Positions 11,976-20,375 are shown, counted from the stretch's first letter. The stretch: 34,287 nucleotides of DNA from Candidatus Aenigmatarchaeota archaeon (GCA_021163005.1 JAGGXP010000006.1:1-34287); one strand, 5' to 3'. The notes: generated from the sequence alone by a model not told the origin. Made by a program: numbers and translations.

Positions 11976-12034
11976 CCCTTTTCGGTGTGAGCATACAAAA
12001 GCGTTCACGGAAAATCATACCGAATAGGCGTGAA
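11976..12034 (+). other. BHB mini-intron 1 of 16S (59 nt, module family)
   Basis: Central helix CACG/CGTG, bulges AAC and AAA, long inner helix CCTTTTCGGTGTG/CATACCGAATAGG. Joining rebuilds the h15 hairpin GCAC-GAAA-GTGT. It contains the shared module CCCTTTT, hairpin, AAAAGCGTTCACGGAAAA. Confidence 0.85.
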
Positions 12035-12309
12035 AGTGTGAGGAAGGGATTCGGAGTGCATTCTCTTATAAAGGGGATGCTTTTGTGGAGTGTAAAAAGC
12101 TTCACGAATAAGTGGTGGGTAAGACGGGTGCCAGCCGCCGCGGTAATACCCGCGCCACGAGTGATGACCACGTTTATTGGGCTTAAAGCGTTCGTAGCCG
12201 GCCCAGAAAGTCCTTAGTGAAATCCCGCAGCTAACTGTGGGGCTTGCTAGGGAAACTGCTGGGCTTGGGACCGGGAGAGGTCTGGGGTACTCAAGGGGTA
12301 GGGGTAAAA

Positions 12310-12370
12310 CCCTTTTGCGCATGAGACAAGCAAAAGCGTTTACGGAAAACATATGCGCACTTGGTTACAT
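12310..12370 (+). other. BHB mini-intron 2 of 16S (61 nt, module family)
   Basis: Lies in the 690 loop. Central helix GTAA/TTAC, bulges AAC and ATT. Joining gives GGGGTAAAA-TCCTGTAATCC, the archaeal consensus. The module is CCCTTTTGC, loop, GCAAAAGCGTTTACGGAAAA. Confidence 0.88.
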
Positions 12371-12467
12371 TCCTGTAATCCTTTGGGGACCACCGGTGGC
12401 GAAGGCGCCAGACCAGAACGGATCCGACGGTGAGGGACGAAAGCTAGGGGAGCAAAGGGGATTAGAT

Positions 12468-12535
12468 TGACCCTTTTTACGGGAGCTGACGCTTCCACAA
12501 AAGCGTCAACGGAAAATGTAAAAATGGTCCTAAAA
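12468..12535 (+). other. BHB mini-intron 3 of 16S (68 nt, module family)
   Basis: Splits the universal GATTAGAT/ACCC block (E. coli about 793). Central helix TTAG/CTAA, bulges ATT and AAA, inner helix GACC/GGTC, outer GGGG/CCCC. The interior contains CCCTTTTT and AAAAGCGTCAACGGAAAA. Confidence 0.92.
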
Positions 12536-12654
12536 ACCCCCGTAGTCCTAGCTGTAAACGATGCCCACTAGACATTGGCAATCTCACGGGGGTTGTCAGT
12601 GCCGTAGCGAAAGCGTTAAGTGGGCCGCCTGGGGAGTACGGTCGCAAGGCTGAA

Positions 12655-12732
12655 TACATGACTGCTTATACTGAGCAATTACTGCTTGGCTAATGAAGCA
12701 GTAGCTGAACAGAGTAAGCAGTCGGTCGGCAA
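12655..12732 (+). other. BHB intron 4 of 16S (78 nt, no module)
   Basis: Splits GGCTGAA/ACTTAAGG at E. coli about 908, a site known for archaeal introns. Central helix GCTG/CGGC, bulges AAT and AAA, inner helix GACTGC/GCAGTC, outer AAG/CTT. The interior has its own ACTGCTT/GAAGCAGT hairpin and lacks the shared module. Confidence 0.9.
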
Positions 12733-13186
12733 ACTTAAGGGAATTGGCGGGGGAGCACACAAGGGGTGGAGGCTGCGGTTTAATTGGATTCAACGCCGGG
12801 AACCTTACCAGAGGCGACAGCAGAGTGAAGGTCCGCTTGAAGAGCGTACCAGACGCGCTGAGAAGTGGTGCATGGCCGTCGTCAGTTCGTGTCGTGAGAT
12901 GTCCACTTAAGTGTGGTAACGAACAAGACCCGCGCTTCATGTTGCTATCGTATATTTCGGTATGCGAGCACTCATGAGGGACCGCTGGCGATAAGCCAGA
13001 GGAAGGTGCGGTCGACGGCAGGTCTGTATGCTCTGAATCCTCTGGGTTACACGCGGCCTACAATGACCGGGACAATGAGATGCGACACCGAAAGGTGAAG
13101 CCAATCTCGAAACCCGGCCTCAGTTCAGATCGAGGGCTGCAACTCGCCCTCGTGAAGCCGAAATCCCTAGTAGTCGCTGGTTAGCA

Positions 13187-13257
13187 AGAGCCTTTTTACA
13201 AGAGCCTGAGAGCTTCTGCAAAAAGCCTCGGGAAAAAATGTAGAAAGATTCCTAAAC
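13187..13257 (+). other. BHB mini-intron 5 of 16S (71 nt, diverged module)
   Basis: Lies in the h43 loop. Outer helix CGCTGG/CTAGCG, central TTAG/CTAA, bulges CAA and ACT. Joining gives GGTTAGCA-TCTAGCGGCG. The interior CCTTTTTAC, hairpin, AAAAAGCCTCGGGAAAAA is a diverged version of the shared module. Confidence 0.85.
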
Positions 13258-13383
13258 TCTAGCGGCGAATACGTTCCTGCTCCTTGCACACACTGCCCGT
13301 CAAGCCATCTGAGTGGATCCTTGGTGAGGCTTTCTTATTTTGGGAAAGTCGAGCCAGGGTTCTGCAAGGAGGGCTAAGTCGTA

Positions 13384-13493
13384 AAGCGTAGAGACGGGCA
13401 ATATGATCGGGGAAACCCGAGATGACTTATATTGTGTGCGCTTTGGAACTTCAAAGAGCACATAGTATAGACTATCGTCTCTATGCTCGACAA
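13384..13493 (+). other. BHB intron 6 of 16S (110 nt, no module)
   Basis: Splits AAGTCGTA/ACAAGG (E. coli about 1499), beside the decoding-site strand of h44. Central helix GTCG/CGAC, bulges TAA and AAA, inner helix AGCGTAGAGACG/CGTCTCTATGCT. No shared module. Confidence 0.92.
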
Positions 13494-18667: not shown

Positions 18668-18707
18668 GCTGGGCAAATCTTAAAAGCCGGGGTGCCATAT
18701 TAATGAC

Positions 18708-19235
18708 ATGATAGAACTGGAAAGGACCTTTCTTATCAGATACCTTCCCGAAGGCATTGGAGCATGCCGGAAAATGGTTGTGAAGGATGTGTATTTCCCA
18801 AAGGACGCATTCCATCCGGTGCTACGCCTCAGGATGGACGGCAGCAGATTCATGCTCACAAAGAAAACACCTGTAAAGGAAGGCGACAGCTCCGTTCAGC
18901 GTGAGCAGACAATAGAACTGACAAAAAGCGAATTTGACGCTTTGTCGAAGCTTGAAGGAAAGGTTCTTGAAAAAGTAAGATATTTTTATGACTACAGGGA
19001 CAGAACCGCTGAAATAGATGTATTCAAAGGAGCGTTGGAGGGTCTCGTTCTTGTGGATTTCGAGTTCGGCAGCAAGGAAGAGAAAGATGCCTTCAAAATG
19101 CCGGACTTCTGCCTTGTGGATGTGACGCAGGAGGATTTCATAGCAGGCGGTCTGCTGGCAGGCAAGAAATACGAAGACATAAAAGCCTCGCTTGAGCACC
19201 TTGAATACAAGAAAATCGTGGGGAAAACAGATTGA
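18708..19235 (+). CDS. CYTH-domain protein (triphosphate tunnel metalloenzyme)
   Basis: A 175-residue protein with the CYTH pattern: ELERTFL at residues 3-9 (the ExExK-like N-terminal motif), LRLRMDGSRFMLTKK, QTIELTKSEFDAL, EKVRYFY, EIDVFKGALEGLVLVDFEF. This fold binds triphosphates and two metals in a beta-tunnel; members are thiamine-triphosphatases, polyphosphatases or CyaB-type adenylyl cyclases. The substrate here is unknown. Possibly leaderless: the ATG lies close to an AT-rich stretch. Confidence 0.8.
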   Translation: MIELERTFLIRYLPEGIGACRKMVVKDVYFPKDAFHPVLRLRMDGSRFMLTKKTPVKEGDSSVQREQTIELTKSEFDALSKLEGKVLEKVRYFYDYRDRTAEIDVFKGALEGLVLVDFEFGSKEEKDAFKMPDFCLVDVTQEDFIAGGLLAGKKYEDIKASLEHLEYKKIVGKTD

Positions 19236-19236
19236 T

Positions 19237-20046
19237 ATGGCACGGTCAAAAGGTAACAATATGCGGGAACAGATTGATAAGAATTATCATATCGTGAAGA
19301 GCCAGGCAGTCAGGAAAGCAATGCAAGCAAAGACCCATATCAGGGAAATTAAAAGCGAACTCTTTAACATGGATATCCCTCAATACATGGAAACTGTTCT
19401 GAGGAACCGAATAAGAATACTCTCGGTACTTTCAGGACTGGCAGCAACAATCGCACTGTTTATAATGTTCAATGAGCCGCTATACATTTTAGCATCGCTG
19501 CTGACAGGCCTGATTGCAATGGTCATTGATTTCTTTATAGAATATCATGGCATTTCAAAAAGGGCATGGAAATATCCTGAAACCCATCTTTCTTTCAGAA
19601 AGGTCCCTGTCGAAGTCCCGCTCATGTTTTTTAGCTGCGGGATAATCGTTGCCTTTGCATTCCTCTGCTTTTCTTCTCAGCCAATGGTCATGATGATTTC
19701 AAGCCCTGGAATAGCCGGACTCAGCAATGTCCAAATCGCTCTTTTTGCTATAGGGGTGTTCTTCATGTTACAATACTTCAGAGGCAAGGCCAAAAGCATC
19801 ATTTTCTGGGTTCTACCCATAAGCATCGCACTGTATCTTTCATTTTCAGAGCCGTGGATACTTGTGATATCACTGCTGCCTGTCTATCTGGACTATTACC
19901 TTGAAAAGTGGCTGGTCAAATCTGCCCACATTGAATACGACAGGTATGGAGAGGAGGTGGCGGTTAATGTCGCTGTCAGCTATTTTCCTGCAACATTATT
20001 CATTTTCGAGGTAGCCGCCGTGATACTTTGCATGCTGCAGATGTGA
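19237..20046 (+). CDS. multi-pass membrane protein of unknown function
   Basis: A 269-residue protein with a basic, polar N-terminal 60 residues followed by about seven hydrophobic segments (for example LSVLSGLAATIALFIMF, ILASLLTGLIAMVIDFF, CGIIVAFAFLCFS) and a final helix IFEVAAVILCMLQM. The start is ATG 19237, one base after the CYTH stop, so the pair is probably coupled; an internal ATG at 19261 is an alternative. No family recognised. Confidence 0.65.
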   Translation: MARSKGNNMREQIDKNYHIVKSQAVRKAMQAKTHIREIKSELFNMDIPQYMETVLRNRIRILSVLSGLAATIALFIMFNEPLYILASLLTGLIAMVIDFFIEYHGISKRAWKYPETHLSFRKVPVEVPLMFFSCGIIVAFAFLCFSSQPMVMMISSPGIAGLSNVQIALFAIGVFFMLQYFRGKAKSIIFWVLPISIALYLSFSEPWILVISLLPVYLDYYLEKWLVKSAHIEYDRYGEEVAVNVAVSYFPATLFIFEVAAVILCMLQM

Positions 20047-20088
20047 GTGTACTAAACGGATTTAACTCAACAAAAAGCAGTCACAACC

Positions 20089-20097
20089 TTTATAAAG
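20089..20097 (+). promoter_or_regulatory. TATA box of the RNase P RNA gene
   Basis: TTTATAAAG, about 31 bases upstream of the predicted RNA 5' end (20124), the usual archaeal spacing. Confidence 0.7.
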
Positions 20098-20224
20098 CAT
20101 TCTGCGATATTCATTTTGCGCGAGCCGGGAAGGTGGCTTCGCCCGTGCGGAAAACGCGCAATGCACTTTCCGCCTGCATTGGTCTGGCAACAGATGCATG
20201 CTGGCTGGACTTGCGTCAGCGCAC

Positions 20225-20303
20225 TTTCCGCGAATGCTTTGCCTGTATAACACAGGTACATGCAGAAGCGGATTTTCCGCGAATGCTTTGCCTGTATAAC
20301 AGG
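20225..20303 (+). repeat. direct repeat pair within RNase P RNA P3
   Basis: TTTCCGCGAATGCTTTGCC followed by TGTATAACA occurs at 20225-20255 and again at 20274-20303, differing by a two-base insertion. Each is an inverted-orientation relative of the module (complement AAAGCATTCGCGGAAA). Confidence 0.85.
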
Positions 20304-20333
20304 TTTGCTGCAGCGGAATGGTGCGTCAGCGTA

Positions 20334-20375
20334 CTTTCCGCCAGCGCTTTAGCACGTTTACGTGTGCTAAAGGGC
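20334..20375 (-). repeat. full inverted copy of the rRNA mini-intron module
   Basis: Read on the minus strand: AGCCCTTTAGCACACG, TAAACGTGCTAAAGCG, then CTGGCGGAAAG. It nearly matches the modules at 17449-17490 and 17782-17825, including the loop ACGTAAAC. Confidence 0.85.

Follow-up and report, generated by a model that had tools for sequence, protein, structure and literature searches.

Mini-introns in the ribosomal RNA genes of an Aenigmatarchaeota archaeon belong to a dispersed archaeal family of hairpin elements of about 40 bases

The window analysed in the present work, i.e. the whole stretch of 34,287 nucleotides, is contig C23 of an archaeal genome (G000; 945 kb, 91% complete; Aenigmatarchaeota). 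The genes for 16S ribosomal RNA (rRNA; 11610-13407), 23S rRNA (14030-18280) and RNase P RNA all lie on its plus strand. A first-pass annotation had noticed that four introns of the 16S gene, three of the 23S gene and an inverted stretch of the RNase P RNA gene share one internal module. We find that these mini-introns are members of a hitherto undescribed family of hairpin elements of about 40 bases, which is dispersed across many archaeal groups; no description of the core was found in the open-licence literature. In the following, G001, G002, G003 etc. denote relatives of G000, and L numbers denote loci with the motif or the element.

The core of the element reads xyz-CCC-TTT(n) ... AAA(n)-GC-G-xyz'-ACGGAAA. 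The hairpin fold consists of the pairing of xyzC with Gz'y'x', a single C.C mismatch and the pairing of CTTT with AAAG, in this order, and the tail ACGGAAA is left over. The module is longer than had been claimed, as it starts three bases 5' of CCCTTT, with the xyz that pairs with xyz' in GCG-xyz'-ACGG. Stated as a rule, NNN in GCG-NNN-ACGG is the reverse complement of the trinucleotide directly 5' of CCCTTT, which is true of all eight window copies, among them the inverted one in RNase P RNA.

The seven rRNA copies and the inverted copy are all real and lie where they had been placed. A motif search with up to three mismatches gives 10 matches in the window against 0.91 expected, with 0/100 shuffles equally high. 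The covariance model R1, trained on 64 archaeal copies that were picked by pattern and matched xyz, recovers exactly these eight copies and no ninth, with E-values from 7e-14 to 3.5e-3, the next-best match being no better than E 0.2. Six plus-strand rRNA copies (12307, 11973, 17781, 12468, 17448 and 17675) have E-values between 7e-14 and 6e-9. Only two of the eight (11973 and 12307) were in the training set, and the other six are therefore independent recoveries. The copy at 13187 is a divergent variant in which GCCTCGGG replaces GCGTTNACGG.

The trinucleotide rule holds well beyond the window. Complementarity between the variable base x and the N of GTTNACGG is seen in 107/115 copies, compared with 19-40 at other offsets, and the full trinucleotide is matched in 144/164, where shuffling gives a mean of 33 and a maximum of 49. 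Among pairs of copies with near-identical arms and different xyz, both members are matched in 40/57. Variants comply as well (TGA/TCA, GCA/TGC and CAG/CTG), and AAC..GTT..AC becomes AAG..CTT..AG. The covariation score is 0.352 vs 0.078 (0/500) in a set chosen for xyz matches; since the R1 training copies were chosen in that way, the R1 covariation count leans in the same direction, and the unselected figures are the 107/115 for x-x' and the G-U counts. The latter are 195 Watson-Crick pairs and 2 G-U pairs at x-x', while about 12.6% of the deeper arm pairs are G-U. This near-absence of G-U at x-x' suggests a constraint at the DNA rather than the RNA level. In one orthologous copy of the Methanophagales (ANME-1), L122, the x-x' match has decayed, with no compensation.

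We now turn to the distribution of the element, for which the contexts of the copies were examined on the stretches surrounding the matches. Within G000, the 16-nt motif occurs in 62 places (up to two mismatches) compared with 4 for a reversed-pattern control, and R1 finds 37 copies. As judged by eye, many copies lie in sense orientation within transfer RNA (tRNA) genes, where they occupy the T loop, the anticodon loop or the D arm and are sometimes in tandem. R1 matches are present in 76/156 Aenigmatarchaeota genomes, with up to 37 copies. About 85,000 prokaryote species, one genome per species, were scanned with the pattern CCCTTTN{8,38}AAAGCGTTNACGGAAA, which does not include x, three positions upstream of CCC. 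This yielded at least 112 loci, 110 of them archaeal among the matches listed. At least ten archaeal groups are represented among these listed matches: Aenigmatarchaeota, Micrarchaeota, Diapherotrites, Altiarchaeota, Nanoarchaeota, Parvarchaeota, Woesearchaeota, Thermoplasmata, Nitrososphaeria, Thermococcus, and Methanophagales and other methanogen-related lineages. The two bacterial loci among them serve as an internal control: they have no x-x' pairing, and R1 finds nothing genome-wide in either. Copies outside RNA genes exist too: in ANME-1 most lie between genes, many of them immediately past a stop codon, and these obey the trinucleotide rule. The checks proposed in the first-pass annotation thus found copies as predicted, both genome-wide and in related DPANN genomes as well as in intergenic DNA. 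The earlier picture, in which one module has spread among the 16S, 23S and RNase P RNA genes, inverted in the last, is right as far as it goes, but the module is not confined to introns and is archaea-wide.

Some individual loci may be described here. Four ANME-1 copies (L122, L172, L302 and L309) lie directly 3' of a conserved repeat of about 200 bp that resembles a small RNA gene, perhaps 5S. The idea that the ANME-1 copies are the end of a larger insertion sequence (IS) was rejected, the shared upstream sequence of about 200 bp following a gatE-like gene and being RNA-gene-like, not a transposase. In L044 (G000 C3:21200-22200) and L152, duplicated tRNA 5' ends of about 15 nt stand upstream of an intact tRNA, each fragment being followed by the element and a tail complementary to the fragment, in tandem in L044. 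Tandem arrays with units of 40 to 52 bp occur in L032, L046, L147 and L181, the first two inside tRNA anticodon loops. At L038, L039, L040 and L041, several of them at contig ends, a variant element TAAGCC..GCCTTAAGGG forms 82-bp tandem repeats that seem to break the assembly. A viral origin was also considered and rejected, as only 3 exact matches were found in 2.9 million viral contigs. One locus on a contig classed as viral (L182; IMGVR_UViG_3300009285_002298, 705-740) has an antisense element by a duplicated tRNA 3' end, with a flank-complementary tail.

Empty sites were sought by BLAST against the rRNA operons of relatives. Exact ones were found for the intron at 12468 (GATTAGAT joined to ACCCCC in G001, G002 and G003), for that at 13187 (GTTAGCA joined to TC in G001 and G012) and for that at 17781 (GTGCAGCA joined to GCGCCC in G001 and G010). 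The site at about 11975-12033 is empty in G001 and G003 (CACGCAAGTG), the one at 17675 in G001 (GAGTTCATATCGAC), and the exons around the 17449 intron are near-contiguous in G016. The 12310 site is empty in G001 and G003 (GGGGTAAAATCC) and filled in G002 with 94% identity, so that this intron is polymorphic among members of a single genus. Polymorphism is also seen for the RNase P copy: G002 has one inverted copy with a different hairpin (xyz GAA/TTC), and G001 and G003 have none, with a plain P3 helix. These two cases bear out the presence/absence polymorphism with clean sites that had been predicted. The motif is absent from the intronless relatives, which means that the module is not an ordinary conserved rRNA helix, the explanation that the first-pass annotation had named as fatal to its proposal. 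For an intergenic ANME-1 copy, a homologous gene without the element was found, yet the far flank is not syntenic.

Copies of the element and the RNase P RNA gene in the window (R1, covariance model; xyz, trinucleotide and its match)
Feature	Position	Strand	Length	Core	xyz	R1 score	Remarks
16S intron 1	11975..12033	+	59 nt	11973-12015	GAA/TTC	51.7 bits	end ambiguous by 1 nt
16S intron 2	12310..12370	+	61 nt	12307-12350	AAA/TTT	52.7 bits	AAA exonic
16S intron 3	12468..12535	+	68 nt	12468-12517	TGA/TCA	38.2 bits	
16S intron, divergent copy	13187..13257	+	71 nt	13187-13237	GAG/CTC	16.2 bits	E 0.0035
23S intron	17449..17556	+	108 nt	17448-17492	AAA/TTT	38.1 bits	ends approximate
23S intron	17675..17721	+	47 nt	17675-17710	TAA/TTA	36.0 bits	
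23S intron	17781..17850	+	70 nt	17781-17825	TAA/TTA	50.8 bits	
Inverted copy, P3 region of RNase P RNA	20333..20377	-			CAG/CTG	28.2 bits	E 1e-6
RNase P RNA gene	20118..20636	+					P1 strands about 20118-20131 / 20622-20636, pairing read from sequence

It is important to note that the rRNA genes hold other insertions too. The four 16S introns with the module are as claimed, but the 16S gene has six insertions, two of which (12655-12730 and 13385-13492) lack it. G002 lacks the one at 12655-12730, and G001 has a different, longer insertion in its place, as well as an insertion of about 680 nt near 12900. The 23S gene contains at least three further insertions without the module, one with an open reading frame (ORF). 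Two are at 15210-15294 and 16092-16222, the latter with a clean empty site in G001; the insertion at 16357-17031 carries the ORF (16459-16950, 163 aa, GTG start) and is by eye a putative LAGLIDADG-type homing endonuclease intron. None of the mini-introns encodes a homing endonuclease, since at 47-108 nt they are too short for such a gene, and the only long ORF is in that separate insertion. No group I or group II catalytic core was found, and only two rRNA families pass the Rfam gathering score in the window. The RNaseP_arch match (20362-20633) has 71 bits, under the gathering score of 84. Between P1/P2 and CR-I of the RNase P RNA, about 235 nt are inserted, where relatives have about 45 nt. 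The decayed copies reported beside the inverted one are recognisable as two minus-strand units spaced by 49 bp (20225 and 20274), which contain AAAGCATTCGCGGAAA and have lost CCCTTT.

The rRNA insertions have the features expected of introns of the bulge-helix-bulge (BHB) type. For the 12468 intron, the minimum free energy structure from RNAfold is a canonical BHB with helix H GGGG/CCCC, helix h UUAG/CUAA and the bulges AUU and AAA, and the predicted splice points coincide exactly with the ends of the empty site. At 12310, a BHB can be fitted by eye at the exact empty-site boundaries (h GUAA/UUAC, bulges AAC and AUU); the fit is less clear at 17449 and 13187. For the rRNA insertions, the empty sites of the relatives indicate that removal restores the RNA. 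Two PF01974 splicing endonuclease genes are present in G000, one of which encodes an epsilon2-type EndA with 297 bits to that of ARMAN-2 (4fz2). Endonucleases of the epsilon2 type have broad specificity, and their hosts tend toward diverse tRNA introns (PMC12397907). On the unmodified element-bearing loci ARAGORN finds almost no tRNA, and after in-silico intron removal seven tRNAs are recovered, while three loci left unspliced give none. The six element-bearing ones among the seven are Val, Asn, Thr, Leu, Thr and Gly, four from G000 and two from other archaea. The seventh, the tRNA-Ala(TGC) between 16S and 23S (13573-13735) of the window, has two introns and is missed by ARAGORN until both are removed. 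Element insertions in tRNA genes thus cause standard tools to miss tRNAs in these genomes. On the strength of these predicted structures, we infer that the mini-introns would be spliced out in vivo.

Taken together, we consider it probable that these are dispersed, non-coding palindromic DNA elements which insert at the DNA level via a single-strand hairpin and persist either between genes or, in RNA genes, as a spliceable BHB. A putative machinery acting on the single-strand hairpin would insert the element into DNA, each insertion leaving the three bases at the hairpin foot mutually complementary. Insertions could then persist between genes, often just past a stop codon or the 3' end of an RNA gene, or in hairpin loops of tRNA and rRNA, where exon stem, inserted hairpin and tail would together form a BHB that the host splicing endonuclease cuts and the host ligase seals. 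The broad specificity of that endonuclease would be the reason why the element is tolerated in RNA genes. The inverted RNase P copy would merely lengthen the P3 hairpin. Complementarity between tail and 5' exon is significant for copies in RNA genes (n=59; mean 4.51 vs 3.68, 0/200) and not for intergenic ones (n=14), and exon-complementary tails were accordingly rejected as a general feature of the element. This limitation to RNA-gene copies is what one would expect if the core moves alone and the BHB is a condition of survival in an RNA gene. Another possibility considered was a triplex or mirror repeat, in which the purine tract that follows ACGG would be a mirror image of the AAAG arm. It is significant against shuffles to about 7 positions, but we do not claim it, because symmetric pyrimidine tracts and one subfamily give much of the signal and antiparallel pairing explains most cases.

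An alternative is spread at the RNA level, whereby introns, once excised and circular, would enter other RNAs by reverse splicing and get back into the genome via reverse transcription and recombination. Archaeal BHB introns are indeed excised by EndA and ligation follows (PMC4496867), and most G000 copies lie in sense orientation within transcribed RNA genes, at places that allow a BHB. However, no reverse transcriptase (RT) was found in G000, G002, G003, G011 and G019, nor in G055 going by the list of RT-positive genomes, whereas G001 is RT-positive yet has no R1 match; a resident RT was thus rejected as the mobiliser for the copy-rich genomes checked. The tails vary by site rather than travelling with the core, and the intergenic ANME-1 copies, the inverted RNase P copy and the scarcity of G-U at x-x' favour movement at the DNA level and not by reverse splicing only; from the two orientations, the first-pass annotation had argued for DNA-level movement or gene conversion. 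We therefore regard the RNA route as unlikely.

Slightly less likely still is that the hairpin is a miniature derivative of an IS200/IS605-like (HUH/Y1) element, moved by a TnpA that recognises the hairpin foot and a target-pairing guide. A single-strand hairpin with a guide-like flank-complementary trinucleotide would suit such an enzyme, even though xyz itself is inside the insertion at most rRNA sites, and in different archaea copies (L082, L114 and L111) lie inside IS200/IS605 tnpA-like ORFs, all at the same place, after HVHLFI, with the frame of L082 open through the insertion. On the other hand, PF01797 is absent from G000-G007 (G000 and its genus) and from the copy-rich G019 and G055, so that a resident IS200 TnpA was rejected for this lineage, and among 61 relatives it occurs in only 14 compared with 35 for the motif. 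Going by IS608, the guide would moreover fall on the other side of the hairpin, except if the bottom strand were the one in use. The idea of no mobility at all, i.e. a functional RNA motif such as a processing or protein-binding hairpin that repeatedly evolved or was recruited in archaeal introns, appears very improbable. It would account for the very strong conservation of GCGTTNACGGAAA, the frequent occurrence in RNA genes and the position of ANME-1 copies by stop codons or 3' of the repeated RNA-like gene, but it is at odds with the polymorphism within one genus, the exact empty sites, the near-identical tandem and dispersed copies, the inverted RNase P copy and the uncompensated loss in L122.

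With neither an IS200-type transposase nor an RT in G000, G019 and G055, hairpin movement at the DNA level by another enzyme, with splicing as tolerance, is favoured. Several points weigh against this interpretation. A transposase, integrase or RT linked with the element was not found, nor is a target-site duplication evident at the rRNA empty sites. At 12310 the xyz is exonic, whereas the insertion includes it at most rRNA sites. Subfamily ancestry may be behind part of the arm covariation, and many of the host genomes are metagenome bins. More tentatively, and short of what we would call probable, the family could be an archaea-wide minimal mobile element, in which a hairpin of about 40 nt rewrites or selects a flank-complementary guide, is moved by an undescribed enzyme and is spared via a spliceable BHB, so that many introns in archaeal tRNA and rRNA genes may derive from it.

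Dispersed near-identical copies combined with presence/absence polymorphism are a general mark of mobile elements, and both are found here. Miniature elements of the IS200/IS605 type share with the present element the single-strand hairpin and may share with it the guide-like complementarity to the target. They differ in that the host genus of the present element has no Y1 transposase, and the element is a single hairpin of about 40 nt. Known archaeal BHB introns are similar in being short and ORF-free, in their BHB flanks and exact empty sites, and in lying in conserved rRNA and tRNA loops; hairpin introns of less than 50 nt are known in Thermoproteales 16S genes (PMC4496867). Unlike those introns, the present family has one conserved 42-nt core common to unrelated sites, genes and archaeal groups, a flank-matched trinucleotide, and copies that are intergenic or inverted. 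How archaeal tRNA and rRNA introns originate and are gained is an open question, and transposition has been proposed for one order: for tRNA introns of the Thermoproteales, a 2010 study, as described in PMC4090602, suggested transposition at the DNA level and left the mechanism open. Going by that description, the similarity of intron sequences in different tRNA genes is shared with the present family, which is set apart by its occurrence in many archaeal groups and by further copies in intergenic DNA and in the genes for 16S, 23S and RNase P RNA; no Thermoproteales are among the matches listed in the species scan. Intron gain becomes directly testable with a searchable core that occurs in at least ten groups of archaea, has polymorphic empty sites and contains a trinucleotide that matches the flank. 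The GC clusters of yeast mitochondria, e.g. GC42, are palindromic, non-coding, dispersed and polymorphic sequences of about 42 nt with merging and tandem forms (PMC4478555). They are a good analogue, being a palindromic mobile element of that size without a known enzyme. The GC clusters are flanked by short repeats (AG, ACT) and lie mainly between genes, whereas the present elements carry a flank-complementary trinucleotide and, judged from their predicted folds, would act as BHB introns.

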